Virus record (IMG/VR): IMGVR_UViG_3300011113_000784
Location: 46,968 to 110,967 of that record
Direction: 5' to 3' (one strand)
Origin: a virus
Length of the DNA: 64,000 nt
The translations under genes and the position numbers were made by a program. A model generated the notes under the pieces. It searched no databases, had not been told where the DNA came from, and worked only from the letters and a program-made list of their open reading frames with translations. Position 1 is the first letter of the stretch; every line of letters begins with the position of its first letter. Below, piece after piece: positions 3,414-62,777 of this stretch.

Positions 3414-3428
3414 TATGAGGACTAACAA

Positions 3429-4622
3429 ATGCCTCGCCGTATTGATTCTGACCATAAAGACTTCAGAGATGTAGTCAGTGGCAGAATTAGAAAAAATCTA
3501 AAAAAGTTTATCAAGAGTGGCGAAATATTTCGCCACCGTGGTAAAAATGGCAAAGTATCAATAAAGATTCCTGCAATTGATATCCCTCACTTTCTTCACG
3601 GCAAGAACCCTAATGGGGTAGGTCGTGGAGAAGGACAAGAAGGAGATACTGTTGGCAAGGACAAGGGGCAAGGTCAAGGACAAGGAAACGGCGCTGGTCA
3701 GGATGAAAGCGAAGGCGTAATTGTTCAGCTAGATATGGAGGACATCCTTCACTTCATGAAGGATGAATTGATGCTTCCTAATCTCAAACCTAAGCAACAA
3801 GCCAACCTTGAAGATGTAAAAATTAAGTATAATAATATCTCTCTAGTTGGTCCAGAATCACTTAGGCATACTCGTCGCACAATGTTAACTGCGATGAAGC
3901 GCCTTTGCGGTACTGGCGAAATCAATAATTTATATGAAATTCCCGGCATTAAAGATAAAGTCAAAATGATCAATCCGATTAATTCGGATAAGAGATATCG
4001 TCAATATAAAGAGATTAGATTTCCTTCCAGCAATGCTGTTGTTATTTTTGCTCGTGATGCCAGTGGATCAATGGATGATCGTAAAGTGGCAGTTGTTTCT
4101 GATATGGCTTATTGGATTGATGTTTATATTAGGAATTTCTATGAACGAGTTGAGAGGCTTTATGTTTGGCACGATGTAGCTGCCCATGAAGTTGATGCAA
4201 AAGATTTTTATCGAATCAGAAATGGTGGTGGCACTACTTGTTCTACTGCTTTAGAATTAGTTGCCAAACAATTTGAAAACAGATTTCCTCCTAAAAATTG
4301 GAATATTTATTTCTTTTATTTCACTGATGGTGAAAATTACGATAATGACAACGATGTTTTTACGACTTTGTTAAAGAAAGAGTTTCCTCAAAATATTGTT
4401 AATCTTGTTTCTATAACTCAAATTGGTGCTTATTCTTACAAAAACAGTGTTGCTGAGGTAGTTGAAAAAGAAATTGTTGAAGGTGGCTTAGATGATAATG
4501 TAATTGTTACAGAAATTCCATTTGATGCAATTAACAATGAAGAAAAAAGAAATGAAGCTATATTAAAAGCAATAAAAGATATATTGGGCAACCCGTTTAA
4601 AAGCGCCAATGAGGTTTTCTAA
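3429..4622 (+). CDS. yeaH: YeaH/DUF444 family protein (von Willebrand A-like)
   Basis: 397 residues. The N-terminal YeaH signature (MPRRIDSDHKDFRDVVSGRI) is followed by a basic region, a Gly/Gln-rich low-complexity linker at about 65-95, and a vWA-like domain with the metal-site motif DASGSMDD at 210-217 and GGGTTCSTAL later. DUF444 proteins are partners of PrkA and SpoVR in stationary-phase and nitrogen-stress operons. It starts 15 nt after prkA and overlaps spoVR as TAATG, so the three are translated as one operon. Confidence 0.92.
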   Translation: MPRRIDSDHKDFRDVVSGRIRKNLKKFIKSGEIFRHRGKNGKVSIKIPAIDIPHFLHGKNPNGVGRGEGQEGDTVGKDKGQGQGQGNGAGQDESEGVIVQLDMEDILHFMKDELMLPNLKPKQQANLEDVKIKYNNISLVGPESLRHTRRTMLTAMKRLCGTGEINNLYEIPGIKDKVKMINPINSDKRYRQYKEIRFPSSNAVVIFARDASGSMDDRKVAVVSDMAYWIDVYIRNFYERVERLYVWHDVAAHEVDAKDFYRIRNGGGTTCSTALELVAKQFENRFPPKNWNIYFFYFTDGENYDNDNDVFTTLLKKEFPQNIVNLVSITQIGAYSYKNSVAEVVEKEIVEGGLDDNVIVTEIPFDAINNEEKRNEAILKAIKDILGNPFKSANEVF

Positions 4623-6217
4623 TGTCAGACAAATTCTTATTTGGTTCGCCTGTTCTTTTCGGATCTGCTACTACTCCCGGCGTACCTATTCCTGAAGAAC
4701 TCAACAAACATATTCCAACTATTTTTCAAGCTTGTAAAGATTTTGGACTAGATTTTTATCCAACAATTGTCCAGATGCTTTCTCATGACGAAATGAGTGA
4801 AGTTGCAAGTTATGGTGGATTTGCATCGAGATATCCACATTGGAAGTTTGGTGCTGAATATGAAGAGATGCAAAGAGGTTATCTTCACGGAAATCATAGA
4901 ATATATGAAATGGTGGTAAATTGTAATCCGGCTTATCTATATTGCCTGAATTCGAATACATTGCTTGACAATATTACAGTAATTGCTCATGCGCTTGGTC
5001 ATGTTCATTTCTTTAAGAATAATATTCATTTTTCTAGAACAAATACAAATGCACATAACGAACTGGCAAATAACGGTTCTAATGTAAGAAAGTATATGTC
5101 TCGTTATGGTAGAGAAACTGTAACAGAATTTATGGATCATTTGTTCCGAATTGAAACTCTTGTTGATCCAATGAATATCTGGAAAGAAAGAAAAGCTAAA
5201 GAAGTTGTCATTAGGGACAAAAAAGACTATGTATTTCCTAAAAGGATTAAGACAAATCAAGATTATATGGAAAACTGGATTAATACTCCAGAGTTTATAG
5301 AAGCTCAAAATAAGAAAATTGAAGAACAAGAGATCATGAGAGATCTCAATGCATTCGCTTCTCCTGAATCAGATATATTTGGATATATCAAAGACAATGC
5401 GCCATTCAAACCTTGGCAGCGTGATATTGCTGAGATTTTGTACAATGAAGCTATTTATTTTAGTCCACAAGGCAAAACCAAGGTAACTAATGAAGGTTTT
5501 GCTAGTTATTGCGATTATCATCTTATCGCTAAACAAGGATACGCTTCTTTAGGACAAGATAATGAGGATGGGGGTATTGTTGAGTACTCTATTCATAAAG
5601 CTGGTGTATTGGGCGGCAAATATAGCATGAATCCATACAAGCTTGGATTTATGTTATTAATGGATATCGAAGAAAGATGGAACAAGGGTAGATTTGGATC
5701 AGATTATGCCAATTGCACTAATCCAATTGAAAGGGAAAATTGGGATCTTAATCTTGGACTTGGTAAGGAAAAAGTTTTTGAGGTTTGCAAGAACTACGAT
5801 GATTATCAATTCATAAATGAATTTTTTACCAAGGAGTTCTGTGAAAAGAATGAGTTCTTTGAGTACAAGCGTTATCCGACTGGTGAAATAAAGTTGGAAA
5901 GCAGAGATTACAAAAAGATCAAAAGAGAGTTGTTGCGTAAGCATATTAATCGTGGTTTGCCAAATATTAAGCTTGTTGAGCCTAGATTTAAAGGCAACAT
6001 GTTTTTCATGGAGCATAAGTGGCAAGGTGTAGAACTTTATAAACCTTATGCTTACGAAGTGATGAAGTCTATTTGTTATCTTGTGAGACAACCTGTTGTA
6101 TTGCAAACCAAGAATCATAATGGGGATGAAGCATTTTATTATTGCCAAGATTTGAACGGGGATTATGCTGCGGCTGATCCTAAATCTTTAACAAGAGATC
6201 AATTGAATAAACTATGA
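4622..6217 (+). CDS. spoVR: SpoVR/YcgB family protein
   Basis: 531 residues, the usual size for SpoVR. It has the conserved N-terminal pattern (FYPTIVQMLSHDEMSEVASYGG, FASRYPHWKFGAEYE), the YEMVVNCNPAYLYC segment and the histidine-rich VIAHALGHVHFFKNN block typical of the family. Named for a Bacillus cortex-formation mutant, the family is widespread in non-sporulating bacteria beside PrkA and YeaH. Start overlaps the yeaH stop; stop overlaps the next start as ATGA. Confidence 0.93.
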   Translation: MSDKFLFGSPVLFGSATTPGVPIPEELNKHIPTIFQACKDFGLDFYPTIVQMLSHDEMSEVASYGGFASRYPHWKFGAEYEEMQRGYLHGNHRIYEMVVNCNPAYLYCLNSNTLLDNITVIAHALGHVHFFKNNIHFSRTNTNAHNELANNGSNVRKYMSRYGRETVTEFMDHLFRIETLVDPMNIWKERKAKEVVIRDKKDYVFPKRIKTNQDYMENWINTPEFIEAQNKKIEEQEIMRDLNAFASPESDIFGYIKDNAPFKPWQRDIAEILYNEAIYFSPQGKTKVTNEGFASYCDYHLIAKQGYASLGQDNEDGGIVEYSIHKAGVLGGKYSMNPYKLGFMLLMDIEERWNKGRFGSDYANCTNPIERENWDLNLGLGKEKVFEVCKNYDDYQFINEFFTKEFCEKNEFFEYKRYPTGEIKLESRDYKKIKRELLRKHINRGLPNIKLVEPRFKGNMFFMEHKWQGVELYKPYAYEVMKSICYLVRQPVVLQTKNHNGDEAFYYCQDLNGDYAAADPKSLTRDQLNKL

Positions 6218-7487: not shown

Positions 7488-8833
7488 ATGAAGATTGTTG
7501 GTTATGAACATCTTCATCTGCACTAGGTCAAACAGAATACTCTGTCCTCGACGGTTTTGGTAGCGTTCAGGATTATATTGATAGGTGGTCACCGCATGGC
7601 GATTATCTCTGTGTAACAGATCATGGATTAATGGGTGCTATACCAAGCTTAATCACAAAAACAGAACAAGCAGAAAAGAAATTAAAAAGTTTGTACGGGT
7701 GCGAATTGTATGTGAACCCAATTCACAATGAACCAACTGAGACTGAAGAAGCTAGAGACAAATTTATAAAAAACTTGTCACCACAAGAATTTGAAGATTT
7801 CAAAGTCTCTAGCCACATATTAGCAATTGCCGTAACCAATAAAGGTTATGAAAACCTAACAAAATTGTGTAGTCTTGGCTGGAGCCAAGGATTTTATCGT
7901 AAGCCTAGAGTCAATCACAAAGTTCTTCAACAATATAAAGAAGGCATTGTTTTCACTTCTTGTTGTTGTGCTTCTGAAGCAGCAAGAGCTTTGCGTGTAC
8001 ATGGCAAAGAAGTTGCTGAAGCGACTATTCTTAAATACAAGCAAATGTTTGGAGATAACTTCTATCTTGAAATGATGCTTCTCGATTTTGAGTATCAACA
8101 TGAGTATGATCAATTTTTAGTTGAGATGCACATCAAACATCAAATTCCAATGATCATTACCAATGATGTTCATTACGCATATCAAGAGGATAGCAAGTAT
8201 CAAACATTAATGATGTTGGTTAATACCAAAAGGACATTGGCTGAGATTGAGAAGTTAAAAGCTGAGAATGCTGATGTGTTTGAATTGCAAGATAGAAATT
8301 TGTGGATGAAAACAGAGGAAGAATTGAATCAAAAGTGGGCTGAAAAGTATTCCGATGTAATTCCTTTAGAAATTTATGAACAAGCTAAAATGAATACTGT
8401 TAAGATATGCAGAATGGCATCTGGCTTAAAATTAGATAGAAGTGTAAAACTACCAAGGCTCAATGATGATGAAGGCGTTTTAAAAGATTTGGTTTTAAGA
8501 GGAATGACATATAGGGGAATATCAAAATCTAATCGTATTTACACAAAGCGTATTGCAGAAGAATTAGATCTTATTTTTAGGAAACAGTTTGCTAGTTACT
8601 TTCTCATAGTTAAGAGTTTTACAGATGAAGCTAGAAGAAAGTGTCAAGAGATTACTGGGTTGGATGGCGTTTATGCGGTTGGACCCGGTAGAGGGTCTGG
8701 TGCTGGTTCTCTTGTGTTATATCTTCTTGGCGTTACTGATGTAGACCCAATAAAGCATGAACTTCTGTTCTCACGATTCTTATCGGAGAACAGAGGTTCA
8801 CAAGCAGTATTAAAATTTAGTCAAGGTGACTGA
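7488..8833 (+). CDS. dnaE: DNA polymerase III alpha subunit, N-terminal piece (PHP domain and start of palm); frame interrupted
   Basis: From ATG 7488 the reading gives MKIVGYEHLHLH and then TAG at 7524-7526. The polymerase continues in the -1 frame: TEYSVLDGFGS from 7532, then VTDHGLMGA, NDVHY and the palm motif GPGRGSGAGS, ending at 8833. Together these are the PHP phosphoesterase-like domain and the first palm motif of DnaE. Relative to the canonical HLHxHTEYS the DNA has eight extra bases (7524-7531). Without recoding, the first in-frame ATG is 7631, which loses the PHP metal motifs. The catalytic aspartates are absent here and lie in the next plus-strand gene. GGAGG upstream supports the 7488 start, though spacing is long. 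It could be a frameshifted gene, a sequencing error or a recoded gene. Confidence 0.8.
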
Positions 8834-9110
8834 CTTCATAGTCATCAAAGTTACTTCCTTTAGAGAAGTCAACATTTGGTGTTCCAAGATCGCCAAAAGG
8901 TTTGTCAGTATTATAACCTTTTGCACGATATGCTTGGCTCTTTTTGCCTTGTAGTGGGAAGCTATAATGCTTTCCTTTAACGCCAGTATCTTCAGGGGCT
9001 TCTGGTTGGGGGAAAGCATAAGATTTCATGATATCTTGAAGTTTTTTCTGAGAATCGCTAATTTCTAGATCTTTTTTATATTGCTCTAAAGTCTTAATTT
9101 TCTTTGCCAT
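8817..9110 (-). CDS. Hypothetical protein between the two polymerase pieces, 97 aa
   Basis: A minus-strand gene with a good GAGGTGA site before its ATG. The protein is hydrophilic: a helical, charged first third, then Gly/Pro/Ser-rich extended sequence with many aromatic residues. It overlaps the end of the polymerase N-piece by 17 nt. I do not recognise it; its strand matches that of the virion genes. It sits exactly where the polymerase gene is split, so its arrival may be linked to the split, although it has no nuclease motif. Confidence 0.65.
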   Translation of the reverse strand: MAKKIKTLEQYKKDLEISDSQKKLQDIMKSYAFPQPEAPEDTGVKGKHYSFPLQGKKSQAYRAKGYNTDKPFGDLGTPNVDFSKGSNFDDYEVSHLD

Positions 9111-9175
9111 GATTCACCTCTACTTTATTTAGATTTTCACATTGATTTTTACCGCTAAATGCTTAAAATCATGGT

Positions 9176-11647
9176 ATGAATACCATATCTGTCGAAGATT
9201 TTAATAAAATTATCAACAATCAATTCAAGAAATTTCCTTTTCATGATGATCCACGATATCAATTCAGGCTTAGATATGAGCTTTTAGAAATAGAAACACA
9301 AAATTGTTGTGATTATTTTATAGATTTGGTCAAACAAAAGAAAAAATTTCTTAATGAAAACAATTTACTTGTCCCAGTGTTACTGGGAATTTGCAATGAA
9401 TTCAATATTGATGAAATGCCCAAAACTAAAACAAATGAATTCCCCGATGTTGATATCGATTTCTTGGCAGATGTTCGTGATTATCTAAAAAACGAATATG
9501 CTCCCAATCAATATAAAGCTGAAAATACATGCTCTATTGGTACTTACGGCAGATATGCTTTAAAGAGCGCCATGATTGATATGGCAAGAATCTATGGATA
9601 TGACCGACAAGAAGTTTTAAATATTACAACAAATTTGAGAATGAAAGACGAAGATGGAGATGAATTGACATATGAAGAAGCTTTAGAAATGTATCCTGAG
9701 TTGAAATCTTATATGGACAAGTATCCAGAATTAGCATTAGCTGTTCAAAAGCTTATTCACAGAGTACGCAATACCGGCAAACATGCTGGCGGTGTAATTG
9801 TTGCCAAGGACGAGATTAATAAGTTTGTTCCATTGATGAAAACCACAGGTGGTGACCAGCTTGTATCACAGTTTGTAGAAGGTTTGGCTACACAAGAATT
9901 AGGACCAATAGGTCTGGTAAAATTCGACTTGCTTGTTGTGTCTGCGTTAGAGCAGACGGGTCACGCAGTAAAAATGATAAAGGATAGGCATAATATCAAA
10001 TTAATTTCAGGTGACAATCACGATTGGGACAACACAGATTATTTGAATGACCCCAAGGCTATTGCGAATGCCAACGAAGCAGATTTGATTGGCATATTCC
10101 AATATGATAGCAATGGGATTAGAGAAGTTGTAAAAGCTTCTGGTATTGATAGTTTTGATGACTTGGTTGCGATTGTCAGTTTGTATCGTCCCGGTCCATT
10201 GAATGCAGAAATGGATCAAGTGTTCATCAGAAGAAAAACAGGACAAGAAGAATATACAATCAATCCCGTGCTTGAACCTGTTCTTAAATCAACTTATGGA
10301 ATTATTATCTACCAAGAACAAGTAATGAGGATTCTGAATGTTGTTGGCAAAATCCCTCTGAAAGATTGCGAAACAATCAGAAAGGCTATTTCTAAAAAGA
10401 AGATATCAAGTTTCATCAAGTATAAAGAACAATTCATTGAAAACGGTGTTAATGTTCTTGGAATTTCCAGAGAAGAAGTCGCTGATATATTTCAGAATAT
10501 TGAATTCTTCTCAGCTTATGGTTTTAACTTAAGTCATGCCACCGCTTATACTTACATCAGCAGCCGACAATTATATTTGAAAACTTATTATCCATTAGAA
10601 TTCTTTACTGCTTTGTTGATGTTGGAAGGTAGTGAAGAGAAGAAGCGCATTTATATTACAGATGCTCAAAATCATGGAATTGAAGTTCGGGCAGTTGACC
10701 TAAACACAAGCAAAGCCAATTTCTCGATACAAGATAATGCCATTTACATTGGTTTTGGCAATATTAAAGGTATCGGAATGGATACTGCCAATAAGATTGT
10801 AGCCTTGCAACCGTTTAAAGACATAGATGATTTTCTTCGTCGGTTTGGCACAGACTCTAGTGTTTTGAAAGCACTGATTCCGTTGAAGGTCTTTGGAGAA
10901 GACACAAAGAGAGCTTACAACTATTGGCAAGCTTTTATGGCTAAGAACAAAAAGGTTGTTGACAAAAATAAGAGATCTAATAAGTCTTATCTCGATCTGA
11001 AGAAGACAGTGTTATATCTGTTGCCTGAAAAGTATAGGAATTTGGAATTGTCTGAAGAATTGTTTTCAATTCTTAAATCAATTAATGATTCTGCTGATGT
11101 GAACAAGCTGCATAAGAAATGGGTGAGGATGAATTCTAAAGAAGAAGCAAAGATTGAAATTTCTTATGAAGACTTTGATGATGATGACATTGTCATCGAA
11201 GATAAAGAGTTGCTGCTTGAATTAAATGATATTTGTGTGGCTGAGAGAAAGTATTATGGGTTTCAGTTTACTTGCAGACTAAGAATGCTAAAGATGTACA
11301 GTGAGAACTGTACATTTGACCGTGTTATTAATTCTCATGCCTTGGGTGCGACTAAGCACATGGTTCAAATTGAAATATTGGATGTCAATAAAAGATATTC
11401 AAAATCTGGTAAGCCCTATTGCCAGTTAGTTGCTATGGATAGTAATTTCAGAATTGAGAGGATTAATGTGTGGGAAGATGATTACGCTATATTCAAACAT
11501 TTGCTTGAGGTTAACAAATGTTTGTCAATGCAGGTCAAACCACCTTCTAATGGATTTTCTACTTATAGCCTAAATTCTCCTCCTAAAAACAGGAGATATT
11601 TACTTCCATCATCAGAGATGGATTTCAGAATTGTTTTAATGGACTAG
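9176..11647 (+). CDS. dnaE: DNA polymerase III alpha subunit, C-terminal piece (catalytic palm, fingers, HhH, OB)
   Basis: 823 residues. PDVDIDF at 90-96 supplies the first two catalytic aspartates (D91, D93) and KFDLL supplies the third (D251); HAGGVIVA, YRPGPLNAEMD, YQEQVM and the SHATAY block are standard DnaE. Near the end is an OB-fold-like segment (MVQIEILDVNKRYSKSGKPY). The first ~88 residues are not DnaE-like and no split-intein ending precedes PDVDIDF. Start at ATG 9176 lacks a strong Shine-Dalgarno. The two products must associate to form a complete palm. Role: replicative polymerase of the phage. Confidence 0.9.
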   Translation: MNTISVEDFNKIINNQFKKFPFHDDPRYQFRLRYELLEIETQNCCDYFIDLVKQKKKFLNENNLLVPVLLGICNEFNIDEMPKTKTNEFPDVDIDFLADVRDYLKNEYAPNQYKAENTCSIGTYGRYALKSAMIDMARIYGYDRQEVLNITTNLRMKDEDGDELTYEEALEMYPELKSYMDKYPELALAVQKLIHRVRNTGKHAGGVIVAKDEINKFVPLMKTTGGDQLVSQFVEGLATQELGPIGLVKFDLLVVSALEQTGHAVKMIKDRHNIKLISGDNHDWDNTDYLNDPKAIANANEADLIGIFQYDSNGIREVVKASGIDSFDDLVAIVSLYRPGPLNAEMDQVFIRRKTGQEEYTINPVLEPVLKSTYGIIIYQEQVMRILNVVGKIPLKDCETIRKAISKKKISSFIKYKEQFIENGVNVLGISREEVADIFQNIEFFSAYGFNLSHATAYTYISSRQLYLKTYYPLEFFTALLMLEGSEEKKRIYITDAQNHGIEVRAVDLNTSKANFSIQDNAIYIGFGNIKGIGMDTANKIVALQPFKDIDDFLRRFGTDSSVLKALIPLKVFGEDTKRAYNYWQAFMAKNKKVVDKNKRSNKSYLDLKKTVLYLLPEKYRNLELSEELFSILKSINDSADVNKLHKKWVRMNSKEEAKIEISYEDFDDDDIVIEDKELLLELNDICVAERKYYGFQFTCRLRMLKMYSENCTFDRVINSHALGATKHMVQIEILDVNKRYSKSGKPYCQLVAMDSNFRIERINVWEDDYAIFKHLLEVNKCLSMQVKPPSNGFSTYSLNSPPKNRRYLLPSSEMDFRIVLMD

Positions 11648-17113: not shown

Positions 17114-17455
17114 ATGGCATGTTTTGAAGAATATAATCTTTTGTGGTTGAATTCTGATTTTGCCAGCAAAAAACCTGCAAAAGAACATTCATTTCTTTAC
17201 AAGTATTTCAAAAATAAAATTCAAAAATTAGCAATGGAGTATTTTTATGTGATGGGGGAAGAAAATATATACCATTTTCAAGATCATACAGGATACAAAG
17301 TTTCCCCATCTTTTTTATGCAAGCAATATTTTAAATTTAAAAGTTTAATGGGCATATATAATAAAGCAAAGAAAAACTTTGACTTTGAAGTTCTGCGTGA
17401 TTTAGATCAAGGCAGAATCAAAATTAAAGATTTAGGAGAAAAAAATGCTAATTAA
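17114..17455 (+). CDS. Hypothetical protein, 113 aa
   Basis: Aromatic- and lysine-rich, predicted mostly helical, with no recognised motif. Lies 9 nt after the previous stop and overlaps the next start, so it is part of the same run of genes. Confidence 0.6.
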   Translation: MACFEEYNLLWLNSDFASKKPAKEHSFLYKYFKNKIQKLAMEYFYVMGEENIYHFQDHTGYKVSPSFLCKQYFKFKSLMGIYNKAKKNFDFEVLRDLDQGRIKIKDLGEKNAN

Positions 17456-17666
17456 GTATACTGATTGGCGAAAAATGCACGAATCATCACCAATGACCCG
17501 ACAAAGGCTTGGCTGGGGCAGGATGGGTACTTATCCGCTTAGAGCCGATTTCATGTCTCATAGCACTCCACCACCAGACATTATGAATAAATTAATAGAT
17601 ACTTTTGGGACTACAGACGGTAAAATTAAACCAAAGCACAAGAAACATAGGAAGAAACATGGTTAA
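17445..17666 (+). CDS. Small basic protein with capsid-targeting-like N-terminus, 73 aa
   Basis: AGGAGAA precedes the ATG. It begins MLIKYTDWRKMHESSP, resembling the F/Y-x-x-W...E leader seen on several proteins in this window, and ends in a strongly basic tail (KPKHKKHRKKHG). A basic tail with such a leader fits a DNA-packaging or virion-internal protein; this is inference. Confidence 0.55.
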   Translation: MLIKYTDWRKMHESSPMTRQRLGWGRMGTYPLRADFMSHSTPPPDIMNKLIDTFGTTDGKIKPKHKKHRKKHG

Positions 17667-19019: not shown

Positions 19020-19334
19020 ATGAGTGAATTCGGTAAGGTAGTTGACTGTAAGCCTTGTGGTAATCAGGTTTTGATTGAGCTTTTAACTACTCAAGAAATG
19101 GCAAACACCAAGCTTATTCTTAACAATACGAATAAGAAGCTTGGCGCAGAATTTCAAGCGATTGTGCTAGCAGTTGGTCCACAAGTAAATTTTGAATCTT
19201 TTGGTTTCAAGGTTGGTGATCGTGTTGTCATTTCTGGCAACGCTGTTCCTGCACCAGAATATGGACCAGATTCAGATCGTGAGAAGGTTCTTATCGATCC
19301 ATATGCTATTAAAGCTGTAGTGGTTTGTAAGTAA
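19020..19334 (+). CDS. groES: GroES-like co-chaperonin
   Basis: 104 residues with the GroES beta-barrel pattern: KPCGNQVLIELL, a mobile-loop region (ANTKLILNNTNKKLGAEFQA), AIVLAVGP, FKVGDRVVISG and the C-terminal strand AIKAVVV. Tailed phages such as T4 (gp31) use their own GroES to let host GroEL fold the capsid protein; a similar role is likely. AGAGGA precedes the ATG. Its 3' end overlaps the next, convergent gene by 26 nt. Confidence 0.85.
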   Translation: MSEFGKVVDCKPCGNQVLIELLTTQEMANTKLILNNTNKKLGAEFQAIVLAVGPQVNFESFGFKVGDRVVISGNAVPAPEYGPDSDREKVLIDPYAIKAVVVCK

Positions 19335-19773
19335 CTTTTTTGATTTTGTACATAGGGCGTAGGTAATCTGGACCTATAAATGACGATTCTATATCAATTA
19401 TATTTGACGCACTCAAGCTGAAGTCTTTTCCTAAACGCTGGAAAACGACCTTCAGCTTGGTGAATTTAGGGACCAAGGGTGTTTCACCTTTTATTGTACG
19501 ATATTGTGTTGGGCTAAAAAACAATTTGGTCCCATCTTCTAATTCAACTTCAATGATTTTCGTTTTGTCAGATAATCTTTTTACTATGCCTTCTCTTGAA
19601 ACAGTTGGTATATCGAATATTCCATTATTAATTGCCATGTCAATATCTGGAAGATGATTTGGATGACCAGTATAACCTAAAGTAGAAATAGCTTGTGATC
19701 CGGTGTCGCTACTTGTAACCATAGCACCGGGAAATATCGACATGCTTTCTATAAATTTTTTAAAACCAATCAT
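19309..19773 (-). CDS. Hypothetical protein with capsid-targeting-like N-terminus, 154 aa
   Basis: A lone minus-strand gene among plus-strand genes. It starts MIGFKKFIESMS, like the MKTYQEFIAE capsid-targeting leader of T4 internal proteins. The body is beta-rich (IIEVELEDGTKLFFSPTQYRTIKG). Probably a virion or head-associated protein; no specific family. Confidence 0.6.
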   Translation of the reverse strand: MIGFKKFIESMSIFPGAMVTSSDTGSQAISTLGYTGHPNHLPDIDMAINNGIFDIPTVSREGIVKRLSDKTKIIEVELEDGTKLFFSPTQYRTIKGETPLVPKFTKLKVVFQRLGKDFSLSASNIIDIESSFIGPDYLRPMYKIKKVTYKPLQL

Positions 19774-21679: not shown

Positions 21680-22135
21680 ATGAAAGTTAGTGAATTTTTT
21701 AAGTCACTTGATTCTATTTCAGATGATTGTAATATCTTGTTTAAGTCTCCAGATTGCAAGTTACTTCCGTTTCATTTTCATATAACTGAAGCAGCTACTG
21801 TCAACAAGAAGTTTGTTGATTGTGGAGGAACTGAGCGAGAAGAAAATTACGCATCAATTCAGTTGTGGACTGCAAATGATTATAACCACAGAATCACAAC
21901 AGGAAAACTTAGGAAAATTATTCTCAATCATTTATTAGAAAACAATCAAGATATGGAAATTTTTCTTGAATGCGATGAAACAAGTCTGACTACTTATACA
22001 ATTGAAAGCTCTGAAGTAATTGGAACTACGATTATTTATGCTTTGGGCAAAAAAACCACACAGTGTCTTGCACCAGATCAATGCGGGGTTAAAGAAACGC
22101 CTAAAAAATCTTGTTGTAAAGGTAAATGTTGTTAA
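21680..22135 (+). CDS. DUF6428-like protein with cysteine-rich tail, 151 aa
   Basis: The pattern HITEAATVNKKFVDCGGTERE...ASIQLWTANDYNHRITTGKL matches, from memory, the bacterial DUF6428 family of unknown function, often found near metal/thiol genes. The tail ends in SCCKGKCC, a soft-metal-binding-type cluster. GGAGA precedes the ATG. It shares TTAA at its stop with the opposite-strand gene. Confidence 0.65.
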   Translation: MKVSEFFKSLDSISDDCNILFKSPDCKLLPFHFHITEAATVNKKFVDCGGTEREENYASIQLWTANDYNHRITTGKLRKIILNHLLENNQDMEIFLECDETSLTTYTIESSEVIGTTIIYALGKKTTQCLAPDQCGVKETPKKSCCKGKCC

Positions 22136-22566
22136 GCAAGATTCTTAATAAAAGCGGTTAATTTTGGCTGACTGTATGTTTTTACATGATGGTTTGCATA
22201 AACAGACGCAAAAAACATACAAAATAACTCTTCTTCATTCATTTTGGGCTTGTTCTTGTATAAAGGAGCAAGCCTTTTCCATTCTTTTTTTTGGTCCTCT
22301 GTAATTAGTTTTTCCCAAATAAGATGAGCTACTTCGTGCAAAAATGTAAATTCTCTTCCATAGTTCCAAGGTGCTGCCACTTCAATATCAAATTTGTGTA
22401 TAACTCCGATATGGTCTTTATCGCCATTTAATGTGTTTTTACAAGTTAATTTTATATTGAAATTCTTTAATAATTTTTGATATTTTTCGGGCAATTTTGC
22501 AATTGTTTTTTGGAGGTTTTTTTCCTCCTCACTTTTTTGTTCTACGAACTGAATAAAACTTCTCAT
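22132..22566 (-). CDS. Putative zinc metallopeptidase (HExxH) with capsid-targeting-like leader
   Basis: 144 residues. HEVAH is a canonical HExxH zinc site in a helix (FTFLHEVAHLIWEKL), and a downstream acidic residue (EEELFCMFFAS) could provide the third ligand, as in gluzincin/ImmA-like enzymes. The N-terminus MRSFIQFVEQKSEEE resembles the leader shared by other proteins here. It may be packaged in the virion. It lies back-to-back with phoH, separated by only 9 nt. Confidence 0.6.
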   Translation of the reverse strand: MRSFIQFVEQKSEEEKNLQKTIAKLPEKYQKLLKNFNIKLTCKNTLNGDKDHIGVIHKFDIEVAAPWNYGREFTFLHEVAHLIWEKLITEDQKKEWKRLAPLYKNKPKMNEEELFCMFFASVYANHHVKTYSQPKLTAFIKNLA

Positions 22567-22575
22567 GCCCTATAT

Positions 22576-23268
22576 ATGGTTATGAAAAGAAGAAAAAAAA
22601 CCAAGGCTGAAGAAATTCAGAAACCAGTTCATGCCTCTCAGAAGGCAAAATCCGTTTTTCATATTGAGTTTTTAAATCCCGTACAGAAAAAATGTTGGGA
22701 AACCATAGAAAACAATGATATTGTTTTTCTTCTTGGCAGTGCTGGTAGCGGCAAGACATTTTTATCCACGGCATACGCTGTTTTTAGTTTGTTGAAAAAA
22801 CAAGTTCAAAAAATTATGATTACTCGTCCAACTGTTGAAGCTGGCGCAAGTATTGGTTTTTTACCCGGTGGCGCAGACGAAAAACTTCATCCTTACATGC
22901 TACCAATTTATGACACTTTGGATGATTTGATTGGCAGAGATGGTACACAGCGTAATTTTGTTAGTAAATCTTTAGAAGTTGCTCCTATAGGTTATTTAAG
23001 GGGTCGCACGGTAAAAAATGCAGTATTTTTGCTAGATGAAGCACAAAACTGTACTTACACACAAATTAAATTGTTTTTGACTAGAATTGGTCAAAACGGC
23101 AAGTTGATTATCACGGGCGACCCCAAGCAATCTGATTTGCCCGGAAGAATTGCTTTACTTGAAATTGTGGATAAACTCAAAGATGTAAAAGGAATAGGCA
23201 TTGTTGATTTGCCAGATTCTTCAATTGTAAGGCATCCTTTGATAGCTTCAATAGTTGAAAGAATATGA
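22576..23268 (+). CDS. phoH: PhoH-like ATPase
   Basis: 230 residues from ATG 22576 (22582 is an alternative). FLLGSAGSGKT is the Walker A loop at about 52-61; VFLLDEAQNC is Walker B and LIITGDPKQSDLPG the sensor region, all diagnostic of PhoH. The family is an RNA helicase/NTPase linked to phosphate stress and very common in phages. A basic stretch (KRRKKTK) opens the protein. Confidence 0.9.
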   Translation: MVMKRRKKTKAEEIQKPVHASQKAKSVFHIEFLNPVQKKCWETIENNDIVFLLGSAGSGKTFLSTAYAVFSLLKKQVQKIMITRPTVEAGASIGFLPGGADEKLHPYMLPIYDTLDDLIGRDGTQRNFVSKSLEVAPIGYLRGRTVKNAVFLLDEAQNCTYTQIKLFLTRIGQNGKLIITGDPKQSDLPGRIALLEIVDKLKDVKGIGIVDLPDSSIVRHPLIASIVERI

Positions 23269-33568: not shown

Positions 33569-34009
33569 ATGCGTAGCAATAAGAAAGTTCCTGTCTTTGT
33601 TTATGGCACTCTTAAGAAGGGCGAAAGAGCGCATGATAAAATGCAAGGCTCTAAACTGATTGCAACCGCAGAATTACAACCAGAATACAAATTATTGAAT
33701 TGTGGACGATATCCAGCCTTAGTTAAGGCAAAGAATGGTACAAATTATGTCCCCGGTGAAATTTATGAAGTCACAAAAGATGTGTTAAAAAATCTTCATG
33801 AATATGAAGGCGTAAGCAGTGGTTTATTTTATTTTGATTTTCTTGCCTTAGATAATTTCGAAATTGTAAATGAACCACAAAGCAATCTTACACACAAGAT
33901 GCTTAATCGTGGATTGGTGTTTGGTTATTTGTTTGGCAATCAAAGAATTAATTTGCCAGAAATCACTCACTGGTCGATTGATTCTCTCTGTTATGCAGCC
34001 ATTCCGTAA
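33569..34009 (+). CDS. Gamma-glutamylcyclotransferase-like (AIG2/GGCT) protein
   Basis: 146 residues. VPVFVYGTLKKGERAHD is the substrate-binding signature of the GGCT fold, with YVPGEIYEV and LHEYEGV, where the Glu is the expected catalytic base. The family cleaves gamma-glutamyl peptides to 5-oxoproline; phage copies are found near amidoligases. TGAGGGA precedes the ATG. Confidence 0.88.
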   Translation: MRSNKKVPVFVYGTLKKGERAHDKMQGSKLIATAELQPEYKLLNCGRYPALVKAKNGTNYVPGEIYEVTKDVLKNLHEYEGVSSGLFYFDFLALDNFEIVNEPQSNLTHKMLNRGLVFGYLFGNQRINLPEITHWSIDSLCYAAIP

Positions 34010-34940
34010 ATGTTGGCAAATTTTGTTCTTTTAGCATACCTTTGCGCCATGTGCCGCCATGTTGTTTGTACCACTTACTAGCCCAAGCATTCGCATAAGC
34101 AGAGTTTCCAGTTACGCATGGTTGATCATTAATTTGTGTAATCCATGTACTTAATGGAGTCTGAGGACACCAAACCATCTCGTTACCAGATGGGTGTACT
34201 TCAAAATTAGTCAATAATGGTAAGCCTTCACCAACAAACAATTTGGTATAGGACTCAAATCCCATTGTTTTTTCTAGCATTAAATTGCCATCTTGCTCAA
34301 TTATCCATTTGTGATCGAGGGTAGATGTAGCAAAGTAATGACCATCGCTATATATCTCGTAAACAGGAGCGTTTTCATGGACATGAATTTTTTCTATTTT
34401 GACAAATTTTCTTACTCTTTCTTGCACATCGAATGCCGCAATCTCATCACCTTCTTTTAATTCATTGTAATATTTCCAGCCATCTTTTGTTAAAGCTGGA
34501 TATGAAATGGGTAAGCAAGGATAAACATCAAATTTTTGTTTAGCTGCTGCTTTTGCCCTTGCCCATAGTGATGGGTTATTTGGCTTGTTTTTAGATGCCT
34601 CGTTTAATTCAATCATCTCTTGTTCTGTCATAAAGTCCTCCTTGAGATTTTCGTGACTAACCCAAACAGGCTTTCTGCCTTTGTGGTGGGTTTTCTTTTT
34701 CTCTGCTCTTCTTTTTTGTTCTGTAGCTTTTTTCTTAAGTTCAGGACTCATGGCAGCGGCTTTGGCAGCAGGACGACATTTGGGATAAGATTTCTTTTGA
34801 TCCTTTTTCCGTTTGCCTTTTTTTGCAGAAGCGCCGCATTCAGGATGTTTGCCAGACTTGTCTTTGCGGGAAATATCTACCCACTTTTCAGCAAACCATT
34901 TGCCTAATCCAGAATCGCTATATGTTTCATTAATATCCAT
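33963..34940 (-). CDS. DUF5872-type phage protein interrupted by a mini-intein
   Basis: 325 residues from ATG 34940 (a TTG at 34961 is less likely). N-extein: GLGKWFAEKWVDISRKDKSG, HPECGAS and SYPKCRPAAKAAAM, a conserved phage domain (DUF5872), then KAAAKQKFDVYP. This last motif normally continues SAYANAWASKWYKQHGGTW, which appears after the intein. Splicing would restore it exactly, leaving 187 residues. The end of the protein, TFTEWLHNRE, resembles the capsid-leader motif elsewhere. Role of the extein: small virion/DNA-associated phage protein of unknown function. Confidence 0.85.
   Translation of the reverse strand: MDINETYSDSGLGKWFAEKWVDISRKDKSGKHPECGASAKKGKRKKDQKKSYPKCRPAAKAAAMSPELKKKATEQKRRAEKKKTHHKGRKPVWVSHENLKEDFMTEQEMIELNEASKNKPNNPSLWARAKAAAKQKFDVYPCLPISYPALTKDGWKYYNELKEGDEIAAFDVQERVRKFVKIEKIHVHENAPVYEIYSDGHYFATSTLDHKWIIEQDGNLMLEKTMGFESYTKLFVGEGLPLLTNFEVHPSGNEMVWCPQTPLSTWITQINDQPCVTGNSAYANAWASKWYKQHGGTWRKGMLKEQNLPTFTEWLHNRENQSTSE
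34104..34517 (-). other. Mini-intein (Hint domain), 138 aa, without homing nuclease
   Basis: It begins with Cys of CLPISYPALTKDG (block A), has TSTLDHKW (block B, T-x-x-H) and ends WCPQTPLSTWITQ...CVTGN followed by Ser +1. The terminal residues are Gly-Asn rather than His-Asn, a known variant among phage inteins. Size and spacing leave no room for an endonuclease. The insertion sits between P and S of the conserved FDVYP|SAYA motif. Confidence 0.87.
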
Positions 34941-34995
34941 AAAACTATATATTTTTCTCAATGAAAATATTTATAAAATTAATATATATTATTGG

Positions 34996-59366: not shown

Positions 59367-59657
59367 ATGGTCGTTCGTTGTAAAATTTGCAAAAAATCTT
59401 GTATCAATTGGGAATCTACAATGCAGGAATGCAAGTGTGGAAACATAATGGGTTTTCATATTGATGAAACCAATATTTCCGTACTTTCACCAGATTTAGA
59501 TAATGTTCTTATCTGGCAAAACGAAGCACAACAATGGGTAAATTATGATAAAACGCATAATTACCCATTGATAACTTGGCAGGGCTATGCTGGTCAACCT
59601 TTTGAAATCAATCCAAAAAAGAAATCTAAGAAACTTTCGTCAACTCTGGATACCTAG
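59367..59657 (+). CDS. Small zinc-ribbon protein, 96 aa
   Basis: CKICKKSC near the start and CKCGNIMG form the metal site; the rest is beta-like with Trp/Tyr (ISVLSPDLDNVLIWQNEAQQW). Basic tail KKKSKK. Own promoter upstream suggests its expression is set separately. Overlaps the next opposite-strand gene by 32 nt. Confidence 0.6.
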   Translation: MVVRCKICKKSCINWESTMQECKCGNIMGFHIDETNISVLSPDLDNVLIWQNEAQQWVNYDKTHNYPLITWQGYAGQPFEINPKKKSKKLSSTLDT

Positions 59658-60414
59658 ATTTTAAATTATTAAGGTTGGAATTGAACCAAGTATTGAACTT
59701 TTTTTCAGCAGCTTCTGGACCAGACTCAGAAGTTTTTCCGGTTTTGCGGCGCTCTTGTTCATGAGTGCTTTCATGCACTATTGTACTGGCAATTTCTCTA
59801 ATAATATTAATTTGCGCTTCTTCAGGAGAAATCTTGCCTTCTTTTTGCAGTCTATTGTAAGTGTCATAAATATTTAAAACATTAATATGAATTGTATCAG
59901 TTGGCTGAATTGCCTGAATGACTTCTTCTGGCACTTTATGTTGCCTAAGAATATCTTCTGGCAATTGTGTCATTTTATCCATTTCTTCTTGCGAAAAAGT
60001 ATATTTTTGTTTGTTATACTGCTTTCCTAAAACAGCTTTATTTTCAGCCGAATTATACAATCCATACACACCAGCTTTGCTAATTGGTGTAATGGTTGTT
60101 ATATCTGTCAAATATTTGTTACCAGTTGCCTTATCATACTCTTGCACAATTTTTACTGCTAATCTTGATTTGTTATAAACCCTTTCCAATTGTGAAACAT
60201 CAACATCCTCAACACCAACATAACTTTGTTCTAAATAATGCCCACCTCTGGCTTTACGCTTGCAATAATTCTTTTGACTGAAACCTTTTGGGTGACTACA
60301 ATCTATACTTTTTTTGTATTTGGTTGACCAACGGCTTTTCATGCCATTGCGTGGTTTGTTGTACTCTTCTAAAGTTTCTCTATTTTCAACCCATTCAGAA
60401 AATTTGATGTACAT
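59626..60414 (-). CDS. Putative zinc metallopeptidase with capsid-targeting-like leader, 262 aa
   Basis: Starts MYIKFSEWVENRETLEE. After it, 'KSRWSTKYKKSIDCSHPKGFSQKNYCKRK' is a Cys/Lys-rich phage motif. C-terminal 'TIVHESTHEQERR' has a HExxHE zinc-site pattern typical of gluzincin-type peptidases, but no third ligand is certain. Acts possibly after injection or in head maturation. Same strand and leader as the two following genes. Confidence 0.55.
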   Translation of the reverse strand: MYIKFSEWVENRETLEEYNKPRNGMKSRWSTKYKKSIDCSHPKGFSQKNYCKRKARGGHYLEQSYVGVEDVDVSQLERVYNKSRLAVKIVQEYDKATGNKYLTDITTITPISKAGVYGLYNSAENKAVLGKQYNKQKYTFSQEEMDKMTQLPEDILRQHKVPEEVIQAIQPTDTIHINVLNIYDTYNRLQKEGKISPEEAQINIIREIASTIVHESTHEQERRKTGKTSESGPEAAEKKFNTWFNSNLNNLKSRYPELTKVS

Positions 60415-60448
60415 GATGTGTATTTATTGTTATTGAATATAATTATAA

Positions 60449-61138
60449 TTAATTATCAATTAATTTTTTAAACAACTCTCTGTTATCGACATTTATGATT
60501 TTATCAAAATGTTCACTAGGTGATACTTCTTGGAAAGAACTCATCATTCTGTCTAATACATTTTCTGGTATAGTTTTCGATCCACCTTTTGCTTTTATTT
60601 CTTCCGATCTTTTTTTAGACATTTTTTTAATAATTGATTCTGCACCACTAAAGTTAAACACAACAGCAATTTTGTTGTAATCTTCTTCTTTCCCTTCTAT
60701 TGCTCTTAACGCTTGTTTTCTTGCATTAACAGTCATATTAGTCATATCAACGATTATATCTTTACCAGAATTTATAGCTCCAGCAATTTTTTCTTTTAAT
60801 TTATCGTTTATGATTGAATTTGCTTTTAGAATTTTCGAGTAAGACAGTGGTTGCCAAGTCATGAAAGCTGGAGATTTTACAACAATTCCATATTTTGGAT
60901 TTTCATAACCTATGGATTCATCTGATTGTGGGGCAACAAACATTTCGTCATATGTCATACCCATACTTTCAGCAATTTGTTCAACGATGCTATCTCGATT
61001 AATAATATAAGGATCTTTGCCAGCAAATGTTTTCTCAATCCATGTTGATTTTCCGACTGATGGAGGACCGATCAATACAAATATTGATTTTTTTTCTGCT
61101 TCTGTAGACTCTAGCCATAATGAAAACTGTAGGTTCAT
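60449..61138 (-). CDS. P-loop kinase/zeta-toxin-like protein with capsid-targeting-like leader, 229 aa
   Basis: Leader MNLQFSLWLESTEAEK; then IFVLIGPPSVGKSTW is a Walker A loop at ~20-33, INRDSIVEQ follows and VDMTNMTVNARKQALR is the Walker B/lid region seen in polynucleotide kinase/zeta-toxin-like P-loop enzymes. Activity, such as phosphorylation of RNA ends, nucleotides or cell-wall sugars, is not deducible here. Confidence 0.7.
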   Translation of the reverse strand: MNLQFSLWLESTEAEKKSIFVLIGPPSVGKSTWIEKTFAGKDPYIINRDSIVEQIAESMGMTYDEMFVAPQSDESIGYENPKYGIVVKSPAFMTWQPLSYSKILKANSIINDKLKEKIAGAINSGKDIIVDMTNMTVNARKQALRAIEGKEEDYNKIAVVFNFSGAESIIKKMSKKRSEEIKAKGGSKTIPENVLDRMMSSFQEVSPSEHFDKIINVDNRELFKKLIDN

Positions 61139-61192
61139 AATATTTATTTATTAGTTATTTTCTTTTTTTAAGTTTGTCAAGAAAGTCGTCGG

Positions 61193-62704
61193 CTATGTCA
61201 TCGAAGTAGGACTGCTTTGCTGCAACAAATATGGTTGAATTAGTTTTTCAATTTCTGGTGTTTTATTGGTGTAATATTGATCAATGATTCTTGCTATTTC
61301 TTGCTTGCCAGATGCATAACGAATCAAATTATAAATATGATTATCATTAAGTTTATTTATATTTTCTGAGCCTAAAATTTTTGCCATTTCTTGCTTGTTA
61401 GATGCATGGAAAGATGCATTGAAAAGCGAACGATAAACATCGTTACTAGAAAGTTTATTTATAATTTCTGAACCTAAAATATTTGCTATTTCTTGCTTGT
61501 CAGATGCATAAAGAAGCAACTCAAAAACATTATCACTAGAAAGTTTTGTTTTATATTGAATTATAATTTTTGCCATTTCTTGCTTGTCAGATGCCTTATT
61601 AAGCAAATCATGAACATTATTGCTAGAAAGTTTGTTTATATTTTCTGAACCTAAAATATCTGCTATTTCTTGCGGTTTAGATGCATGGAAAAGCAAACGA
61701 TAAACATCATGATTAGAAAGTTTATTTATATTTTCTGAACCTAAAATATTTGCTATTTCTTGCTTGTTATTTTCTAGACTAAGCAAAAGTAAAATATTAT
61801 TATTAGAAAGTTTGTTTATATTTTCTGAACCTAAAATATCTGCTATTTCTTGCGGTTTAGATGCATAATGAAGTAAATAAAAAACATTATCATTAGAAAT
61901 TTCTTTTTTGTTTTGAATTATAATTTTTGCTATTTTGTCTTGATTTGCAACATGTCCCATTATAGTGCTAATATCGTCATCACTTAGCATTTGTTTTTTA
62001 CTTTTAATAAAAGATTTTGCCCATTCATCTTTATTTTTTATATTTTTAATCAAATCTAAAACGCTTGGTATATATTTTTCTTTATTTTTTTTATTTTCTA
62101 TGACATGTATTACTTTTAGAGCATTAGCAGTGAAAACAACACCTTGTGTTGGTTCAAAGGTGTGAATAGTTCCTGTGCCATGATCAAAGAAACCATCTAT
62201 GCCTAATTTTCTTAAATTAGTATTCCACAATATTGGATTTTCATTGGAAATCAATCGTGTTGCAAGCCAGACAGTTGAATAACTGCTCCTTATATCGAGT
62301 CCTTTAGTTTTTATTCGAGCAATTGCATTTTCTACTTCTGTTTCTGAAAATGTTTTCATAAGCAAATCTATGCCAAGTTGTGGTTCAACTGTTTTTTGCA
62401 TATGAAGAATTTTATTTGGTCTTACAATTTCACACACATTGATATAAGGTTGATCTCCAGCAAATGGCACATTTAGTTCCCAATCAATGACATATTTTAA
62501 TGGATAGAAATAAATTCCAAATGGTGTGTCGAATTTACTTTTTGGATTTATGCCTATTTTGTTAATTGATGTGTAAGAAACAACTAAATTGTCTGGATTA
62601 GGATGGTTAGCGTAAATGTATTTTAATGCATCTAATTTGTCACGGAATTGGACCCCGTTGACTTCTATTTTCTCTGAAAGTAATAGCCATTCTTTGAAAC
62701 GCAT
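61193..62704 (-). CDS. ADP-ribosyltransferase-like protein with helical repeats and capsid-targeting-like leader, 503 aa
   Basis: Leader MRFKEWLLLSEKIEV. Residues ~40-210 show an ART-like pattern: VVSYTSINKIGINP, TPFGIYFYPL and GTIHTFEPTQGVVF with a Glu before the terminal strand. Residues ~230-490 are about eight and a half alpha-helical repeats of ~30 residues (KQEIANILGSENINKLS...NVYxLL). The ART domain of phage 'polyvalent-type' proteins modifies host proteins after infection; T4 Alt is the analogy. Catalytic residues need modelling to confirm. Confidence 0.6.
   Translation of the reverse strand: MRFKEWLLLSEKIEVNGVQFRDKLDALKYIYANHPNPDNLVVSYTSINKIGINPKSKFDTPFGIYFYPLKYVIDWELNVPFAGDQPYINVCEIVRPNKILHMQKTVEPQLGIDLLMKTFSETEVENAIARIKTKGLDIRSSYSTVWLATRLISNENPILWNTNLRKLGIDGFFDHGTGTIHTFEPTQGVVFTANALKVIHVIENKKNKEKYIPSVLDLIKNIKNKDEWAKSFIKSKKQMLSDDDISTIMGHVANQDKIAKIIIQNKKEISNDNVFYLLHYASKPQEIADILGSENINKLSNNNILLLLSLENNKQEIANILGSENINKLSNHDVYRLLFHASKPQEIADILGSENINKLSSNNVHDLLNKASDKQEMAKIIIQYKTKLSSDNVFELLLYASDKQEIANILGSEIINKLSSNDVYRSLFNASFHASNKQEMAKILGSENINKLNDNHIYNLIRYASGKQEIARIIDQYYTNKTPEIEKLIQPYLLQQSSPTSMT
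61255..62030 (-). repeat. About 8.5 helical repeats of ~30 aa
   Basis: Units of form (K/P)QE(I/M)A(N/D)ILGSENINKLS(N/S)N(N/D)VYxLLxxAS. At the DNA level some units are near-identical (for example around 61630-61680 and 61818-61863), so unit number could vary by recombination. Confidence 0.75.
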
Positions 62705-62777
62705 AATGTGTATTTACAATTTTTAGCTAAAAATTTAATTCAATAAAATTGTTCAAAAGCTTAATCGACAAGACCAC

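Follow-up and report, generated by a model that had tools for sequence, protein, structure and literature searches.

A probable T4-type capsid-targeting leader on a large set of proteins in an uncultured huge phage

Three neighbouring minus-strand genes of the virus record IMGVR_UViG_3300011113_000784 (IMG/VR) begin with the same kind of short aromatic leader. The window analysed comprises 64,000 nucleotides (nt), bases 46968–110967 of this 110,967-base record, a contig that is itself a fragment. The shared N-terminal leader is a real, protein-level, clade-wide tag. It is probably (at roughly 80%) a capsid-targeting sequence (CTS) of the T4 type, carried by a much larger cargo set than that of T4, and the comparison suggests that this huge phage may carry an enzyme toolkit in its particle, directed at the bacterium as infection begins. 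The original prediction was that a T4-CTS-like leader marks a set of proteins for head packaging. Comparison supports this well as regards the residues, the head genes of the clade and the late-gene appearance; a uniform cleavage site and an ADP-ribosyltransferase (ART) label were not supported, and Alt does not have the leader ascribed to it. Features of the window are given in Table 1, in which the three neighbouring genes are numbered 1 to 3.

The leader was defined as M, 1–5 residues, [FY]xx[FWY][ILVM] and an acidic residue within the following six residues. All seven leaders quoted in the original prediction were recovered, and the rest of the record yielded further ones on both strands (MITFIQFLES, MKSFLEFIFE, MKTFIQYITE, MTGFKKWLQVDE, MRSFIDFIED and MLSFKQFLNYIEE). 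The reported bias to the minus strand applies inside the window; elsewhere in the contig at least five other tagged genes lie on the plus strand. The pattern occurs at 10 of 124 contig open reading frame (ORF) starts and at 2 of 546 internal methionines (Fisher p=1.6e-6), and 500 shuffles of residues 2–20 gave a mean of 0.95 matches and a maximum of four. With a slightly different regular expression that allowed later starts, the counts were 11/124 ORFs (8.9%) and 1/512 internal methionines (0.2%). In 560 kb of unselected viral loci 3 of 761 ORFs matched (0.4%), the same as the internal rate, and all three came from one T4-like contig with a T4 portal and protease. It is hardly credible that the leaders are chance or compositional aromatic-rich starts of an AT-rich genome, picked out by a pattern search. 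Low-quality single matches do exist (MTETDFVQFVRI, MKIDLFKAFM), and the leader at 17445 is the weakest of the set (Arg at position 8, a Shine–Dalgarno start and no late box), but the enrichment over internal methionines, shuffles and unselected loci, together with conservation in orthologues, refutes chance for the set as a whole.

The T4 internal protein (IP) IPI starts MKTFKEFT, IPII and IPIII start MKTYQEFIAE, and 61.1 starts MKTFKEFIKE; the same kind of regular expression picks up IPII, IPIII and 61.1. T4 Alt, to which the MKTYQEFIAE leader had also been attributed, starts MELITELFDE. For targeting, the T4 sequence relies chiefly on residues 4 and 7, and for processing on residues 8 and 10 (PMC9026906). 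Tag composition was calculated from 111 tags, with the aromatics at 4 and 7 imposed by the search: Phe occupies position 4 in 94%, and position 7 has Trp in 52%, Phe in 32% and Tyr in 16%. Positions that the search did not impose are still T4-like, with T/N/S at 3, K/R at 5 (46%) and E/Q/D at 6 (71%). The tags thus have the build of the CTS of IPI, IPII and IPIII, namely about ten N-terminal residues with a K-T-F/Y-x-E start, aromatics at 4 and 7, a hydrophobic residue at 8 and frequent Glu just after, commonly at position 9, 10 or 12. The T4 prohead protease cuts after L/I-X-E (PMC9026906). Within nine residues of the tag aromatic, [LIVM]xE is present in 53 of the 111 tags, compared with 10/111 further downstream; because position 8 is hydrophobic by selection, the unbiased part of this signal is the excess of Glu (within six residues, 88/111 versus 39/111). 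As a separate observation, T4 gp61.1 (NC_000866, 18966–19130), annotated as hypothetical, looks from its start like another internal protein of T4; it was not met as such in the literature, in which no search was aimed at 61.1.

Dozens of contig proteins have matches, in largely collinear order, in LR756511, the 595-kb genome of an uncultured phage; this genome has about 40–50 tagged starts, many of them MKTFxxWLE. Its head cluster consists of a terminase (assigned by eye), a portal (PF07230, E 1e-74), a 616-residue protein, an S77 protease (E 7e-28; PHROG head maturation protease, 3e-46), a candidate coiled-coil scaffold of about 300 residues (525018–525950) and a major head protein (PHROG 138, E 5e-81). 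Eleven related regions were read for head clusters. Portal, protease, candidate scaffold and a gp23-like gene stand in this order in most relatives read, and most of the head clusters contain tagged genes. Just downstream of the head-protein gene of LR756511 lie a tagged NADAR gene and a tagged gene of 1076 residues, and contig G009 carries three tagged orthologues of gene 3 as well as a portal and a protease. The major head protein, where captured, starts M[NS]xNA[KR]FLNEA or a close variant (one MNARFLNEA, one AYLNEA); MNANAKFLNEA holds FLNE/A at 7–10, a T4-like LxE/A site at or near residue 10. T4 portals were present in 8/18 contigs selected by MKTFxxWL, a set that includes chance internal matches, and in 4/16 selected by a scrambled pattern, which is not significant by count; the long-portal type (835–869 residues) alone is clearly different (six contigs versus none).

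The T4-type portals of the clade are long, about 840–870 residues, and an insert resembling an intein (ACVAGDTLISTVYHGPKTIEWL...) is apparent in that of LR756511 (531014–533587, locus L030). A second S77-type protease homologue of LR756511 (242240–243133, E 3.5e-9) lies outside the head cluster. LR745206.1 and LR756504.1 (loci L325–L328), huge phages with T4-type portals, have another flavour of leader (MISKYNQFINEE, MIKKFNQFLENN, MIKKYNQFVNDR and MVKKYNEYLTEG).

The tagged genes look like late genes, which would be expressed with the head genes. A late box 2–8 bases upstream of the start was found for 8 of 14 tagged and 9 of 110 other contig ORFs (p 4e-5), and in LR756511 for 33 of 67 tagged and 55 of 951 other ORFs (p=3e-20). 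The contig has its own gene for a gp55-like late sigma factor (PHROG 234, E 9e-8). The spacing from box to ATG peaks at 4–5 bases (33 of 42 boxed tags). In T4 late promoters, the TATA box of 8 bp lies about one helical turn before the point where transcription starts (PMC2988020); here, transcription would accordingly start at about the ATG, and we infer that the late mRNAs of the tagged genes may be leaderless. The tight spacing, which could put +1 at the ATG, would also suit a nucleic-acid start cassette, in which late promoter, ATG and early codons serve the translation of leaderless mRNA and the likeness of the peptides is a by-product. We give this explanation very little weight: about a third of the accepted tags have no box and a Shine–Dalgarno-like start alone, the box also stands before late genes that lack the peptide, and tag codon use follows the genome (Phe codons TTT/TTC 0.59/0.41 in tags, 0.58/0.42 genome-wide), from which it follows that selection acts on the peptide.

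The tag evolves separately from the body. It was kept in all four orthologue pairs between the contig and LR756511, in which body identity is 31–43%, and the same leader stands on unrelated bodies in LR756511 and many other contigs. Homologues of gene 1 occur as tag–peptidase without the basic Cys module (L004, L008) and as tag–module–peptidase (L005, L006); the module is also found alone, in tagged proteins of about 55 residues (L009, L010, L014–L016), and in L011 and L013 the motif comes after it. The module is present in T4-like cyanophages as well, with the starts MKTLKQFLKE (S-SM2), MKSFKQFQES (Bellamy) and, close to the gene for the major head protein, MKSFIDFSEN (P-TIM68). Tagged bodies in LR756511 include NADAR, HAD_SAK, polyA polymerase and a phosphoribosyltransferase, the last with the tag some 30 residues inside the longest ORF. 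An ART-PolyVal domain (L014, E 1.7e-18), a NUDIX protein (L009), HExxH proteins and bodies with weak GNAT and acyltransferase matches are tagged as well. Such bodies fit enzymes that would be directed at the host or its defences. In LR756511, the stretch 520504–522461 (L030), downstream of the gene for the major head protein, contains the tagged NADAR (MLTWTEFLEARQ) and the phosphoribosyltransferase ORF with VDFKEWYFINEG near its start.

The tagged proteins might instead be scaffold-core or minor head parts that serve assembly only and are removed before maturation. The T4 protease degrades gp22, gp67 and other proteins of the core (PMC9026906), and a small tagged ORF recurs between the portal and a 600-residue head-cluster gene in most of the genomes. 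Many tagged bodies face the host or its defences (ART-PolyVal, NADAR, NUDIX, polynucleotide kinase, HAD_SAK and polyA polymerase), which makes a purely structural role very unlikely.

The leader motif also appears at C-termini. The TFTEWLHNRE reported at the end of the intein-bearing protein was confirmed. C-terminal FxxW[LIVM] occurs twice in the contig with 0.11 expected, and another copy is present in L013. Genome-wide, LR756511 has no C-terminal excess (39 versus 32.5 expected, or 2 versus 3.5), and for this reason a C-terminal tag is not claimed; the copies are suggestive only. They bear on a rival explanation, in which the tag docks its protein onto some other component of the phage, for example a sliding clamp, a membrane site or a body for replication or transcription. 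A shared hub protein of the phage could be bound by the leader as an aromatic amphipathic helix. Peptides that bind clamps are as a rule short and hydrophobic and lie at a terminus, and the C-terminal copies in the contig and L013 would fit such a peptide. Docking away from the head is nevertheless unlikely, given the N-terminal, position-specific match to the T4 CTS, the tags inside head clusters, the late promoters and the missing C-terminal excess in LR756511. The insert in the intein-bearing protein (window about 34105–34520, minus strand) is intein-like, with Cys as first residue and the end ...VTGN followed by Ser, and interrupts the conserved KFDVYP/SAYANAW motif of a DUF5872-type basic protein. 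The DUF5872 domain was rejected as a tag carrier; its relatives (80 loci) mostly have no terminal tag.

Among the proteins named in the original prediction as two peptidases, a kinase and an ART, the kinase, gene 2, is supported by Pfam AAA_33 (E 5e-15, above the cut-off) and PHROG 505 polynucleotide kinase (E 2e-12); its homologue in L018 starts MKAFAQWVEK. Both peptidase assignments rest on HExxH, invariant in five homologues for gene 1 and simply read in the sequence for the gene at 22132. In the gene 1 alignment, leader residues F5 and W8, H214-E215-T217-H218 and Glu residues downstream of HExTH are invariant (five sequences). No family or fold match was found in Pfam or by PDB comparison of a weak model (predicted local distance difference test, pLDDT, 56.6), which leaves the activity unproven and the product a putative HExxH metallopeptidase. 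The gene at 22132 has an orthologue in LR756511 (43% identity) that starts MEGFRQFFEQ. The ART label for gene 3 was not confirmed: its N-domain resembles ART-PolyVal by eye in blocks, which is unproven, with no Pfam match, an AlphaFold model of pLDDT 38 and an hhalign probability of 4% against the tagged ART-PolyVal, for which the sequences were too few. Three tagged paralogues in tandem in L019 are homologous to gene 3 and longer. The C-terminal part of gene 3 is a run of repeats of about 33 residues (ANILGSENINKLSNNDVYRLLFHASKPQEI...).

Table 1. Leader-bearing genes of the window and their elements (window coordinates)
Feature	Position	Strand	Details
Gene 1	59626..60414	minus	Leader MYIKFSEWVENRE, basic Cys module DCSHPKGFSQKNYCKRKARGG, then HExxH putative metallopeptidase
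Gene 1 leader	60376..60414	minus	13 codons
Gene 1 late-promoter-like box	60421..60426	minus	TAAATA, 6 nt before ATG
Gene 1 basic Cys module	60235..60363	minus	NKPRNGMKSRWS..SIDCSHPKGFSQKNYCKRKARGG
Gene 1 zinc-binding-type motif	59761..59775	minus	HESTH; HExTH invariant in homologue alignment
Gene 2	60449..61138	minus	Leader MNLQFSLWLESTE and P-loop kinase, polynucleotide-kinase-like
Gene 2 leader	61100..61138	minus	
Gene 2 late-promoter-like box	61145..61150	minus	TAAATA, 6 nt before ATG; second overlapping copy 2 nt before
Gene 3	61193..62704	minus	Leader MRFKEWLLLSE, N-domain, then repeats of ~33 residues
Gene 3 leader	62672..62704	minus	
Gene 3 late-promoter-like box	62711..62716	minus	TAAATA, 6 nt before ATG
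Tagged HExxH (HEVAH) protein	22132..22566	minus	Leader MRSFIQFVEQ
HEVAH gene late box	22571-22576	minus	TATATA, 4 nt before ATG
Tagged gene	19309..19773	minus	Leader MIGFKKFIES; Shine–Dalgarno-like GGTG at start
Small basic protein	17445..17666	plus	Weak leader MLIKYTDWRKMHES; Shine–Dalgarno start AGGAG, no late box
DUF5872-like protein with intein-like insert	33963..34940	minus	Likely start ATG 34940
DUF5872-like gene late box	34946-34951	minus	TATATA
C-terminal motif copy in intein-bearing protein	33984..34013	minus	TFTEWLHNRE

The likeness to the T4 CTS extends to the T4-type portal, S77 protease and head protein of the relatives and to the T4-like late promoters. The differences are that tens of genes per genome are tagged here, many of them for enzymes, whereas T4 has three internal proteins and probably 61.1; that Trp is favoured at position 7; that the Glu positions vary without a fixed LxE; that the promoter box abuts the ATG, whereas the T4 IP genes have Shine–Dalgarno leaders; and that C-terminal and internal copies may occur. 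T4 Alt, an ADP-ribosyltransferase that is packaged, has both its ends cut by gp21 (PMC9026906). Part of the tagged cargo here is likewise an ART, of the ART-PolyVal kind (L014); the Alt leader is not of the MKTF type, and the ART candidate of the window is unproven. To our knowledge, the propeptides and inner-body proteins of the giant phages phiKZ and SPN3US have no short common leader. Many head proteins of these phages are cleaved and ejected, with S/A-X-E sites in phiKZ (PMC9026906), and they belong to another head lineage. In phage P1, an N-terminal signal loads the anti-restriction protein DarB into the head, and its first 30 residues suffice (PMC9024508); likened by description, the tag would be a comparable N-terminal loading signal in a different phage lineage. 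Proteins of NAD–ADP-ribose systems (ART, NADAR and NUDIX) have been predicted from fusions and neighbourhoods to be packaged in myovirus heads, in a text that does not mention a targeting sequence (PMC9503650). Compared with such polyvalent or MuF-fused effectors, the enzyme kinds are the same and a portable peptide tag does the marking here. In the open-access literature, no previous description of a genome-wide CTS set was found for huge phages.

With head loading as the preferred reading, the following course is proposed. A T4-like late RNA polymerase with a gp55-like sigma factor would start at TAAATA-type boxes 4–6 bases upstream of the cargo ATG, a step for which there are signals in the DNA itself. 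The nascent cargo would expose an amphipathic M-x-T/N/S-F-K-E-W/F-L helix, whose aromatics 4 and 7 would bind the prohead scaffold core, and the major head protein would close the shell around it. The S77 prohead protease would then cut at nearby L/I/V-x-E sites, freeing some or all of the cargo from the core, and after DNA packaging the enzymes would be ejected with the genome and act at once on the host or its defences.

Several points weigh against this reading. Everything after the first step, including packaging, cleavage and injection, is inferred by homology to T4. The exact LxE at 8–10 is present in just 23 of 111 tags (21%), so targeting is better supported than a fixed cleavage site, and a uniform cleavage site after the leader is not supported; processing may be partial or follow another rule. 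Portal, protease and head protein are not in the 111-kb contig, which is a fragment; the prohead protease was found in LR756511 and in contigs with the same tagged genes. T4-GC15 of the cyanophage S-SM1, a hypothetical virion protein detected by mass spectrometry and the one readable, has no tag, which means that virion location does not need one; T4-GC190 of S-SM1 was not found in the stretches read. Late boxes also precede some untagged genes and hence mark late genes generally.

A broader proposal is less likely than not. In huge T4-related phages the CTS might be a portable gene-start cassette that combines the tag with a late promoter firing at the ATG, giving a leaderless mRNA, by which an acquired enzyme would become late-expressed and head-loaded in one step. 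The tag might also work at C-termini or in interdomain positions, and its flavour, MKTFxxWLE or, in LR745206, KYNQF[LIV]NE, would co-vary with the scaffold of the phage.

Two other regions of the window were recorded. At 1338–6217 there are three adjacent genes, the first of which is similar to genes for PrkA-type serine kinases in Thermus phages and in huge phages (63% to LR756511) and the second of which matches a 'sporulation protein' PHROG. At 7631–11647 a DNA polymerase (PHROG 405) is split over two consecutive ORFs; in LR756511 it is one ORF of about 1180 residues.

The proteins that giant phages co-deliver are mostly unknown, and listing them normally needs purified virions of a cultured phage. 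The tag gives a clear prediction for virion proteomics and, if the head-loading reading is true, would supply new leaders, possibly scaffold–leader pairs, for loading proteins into phage heads. A readable tag would then make it possible to list, from sequence alone, which proteins uncultured huge phages inject, with dozens of candidates per genome, several of them ADP-ribose, NAD and RNA-repair enzymes that would fit counter-defence.

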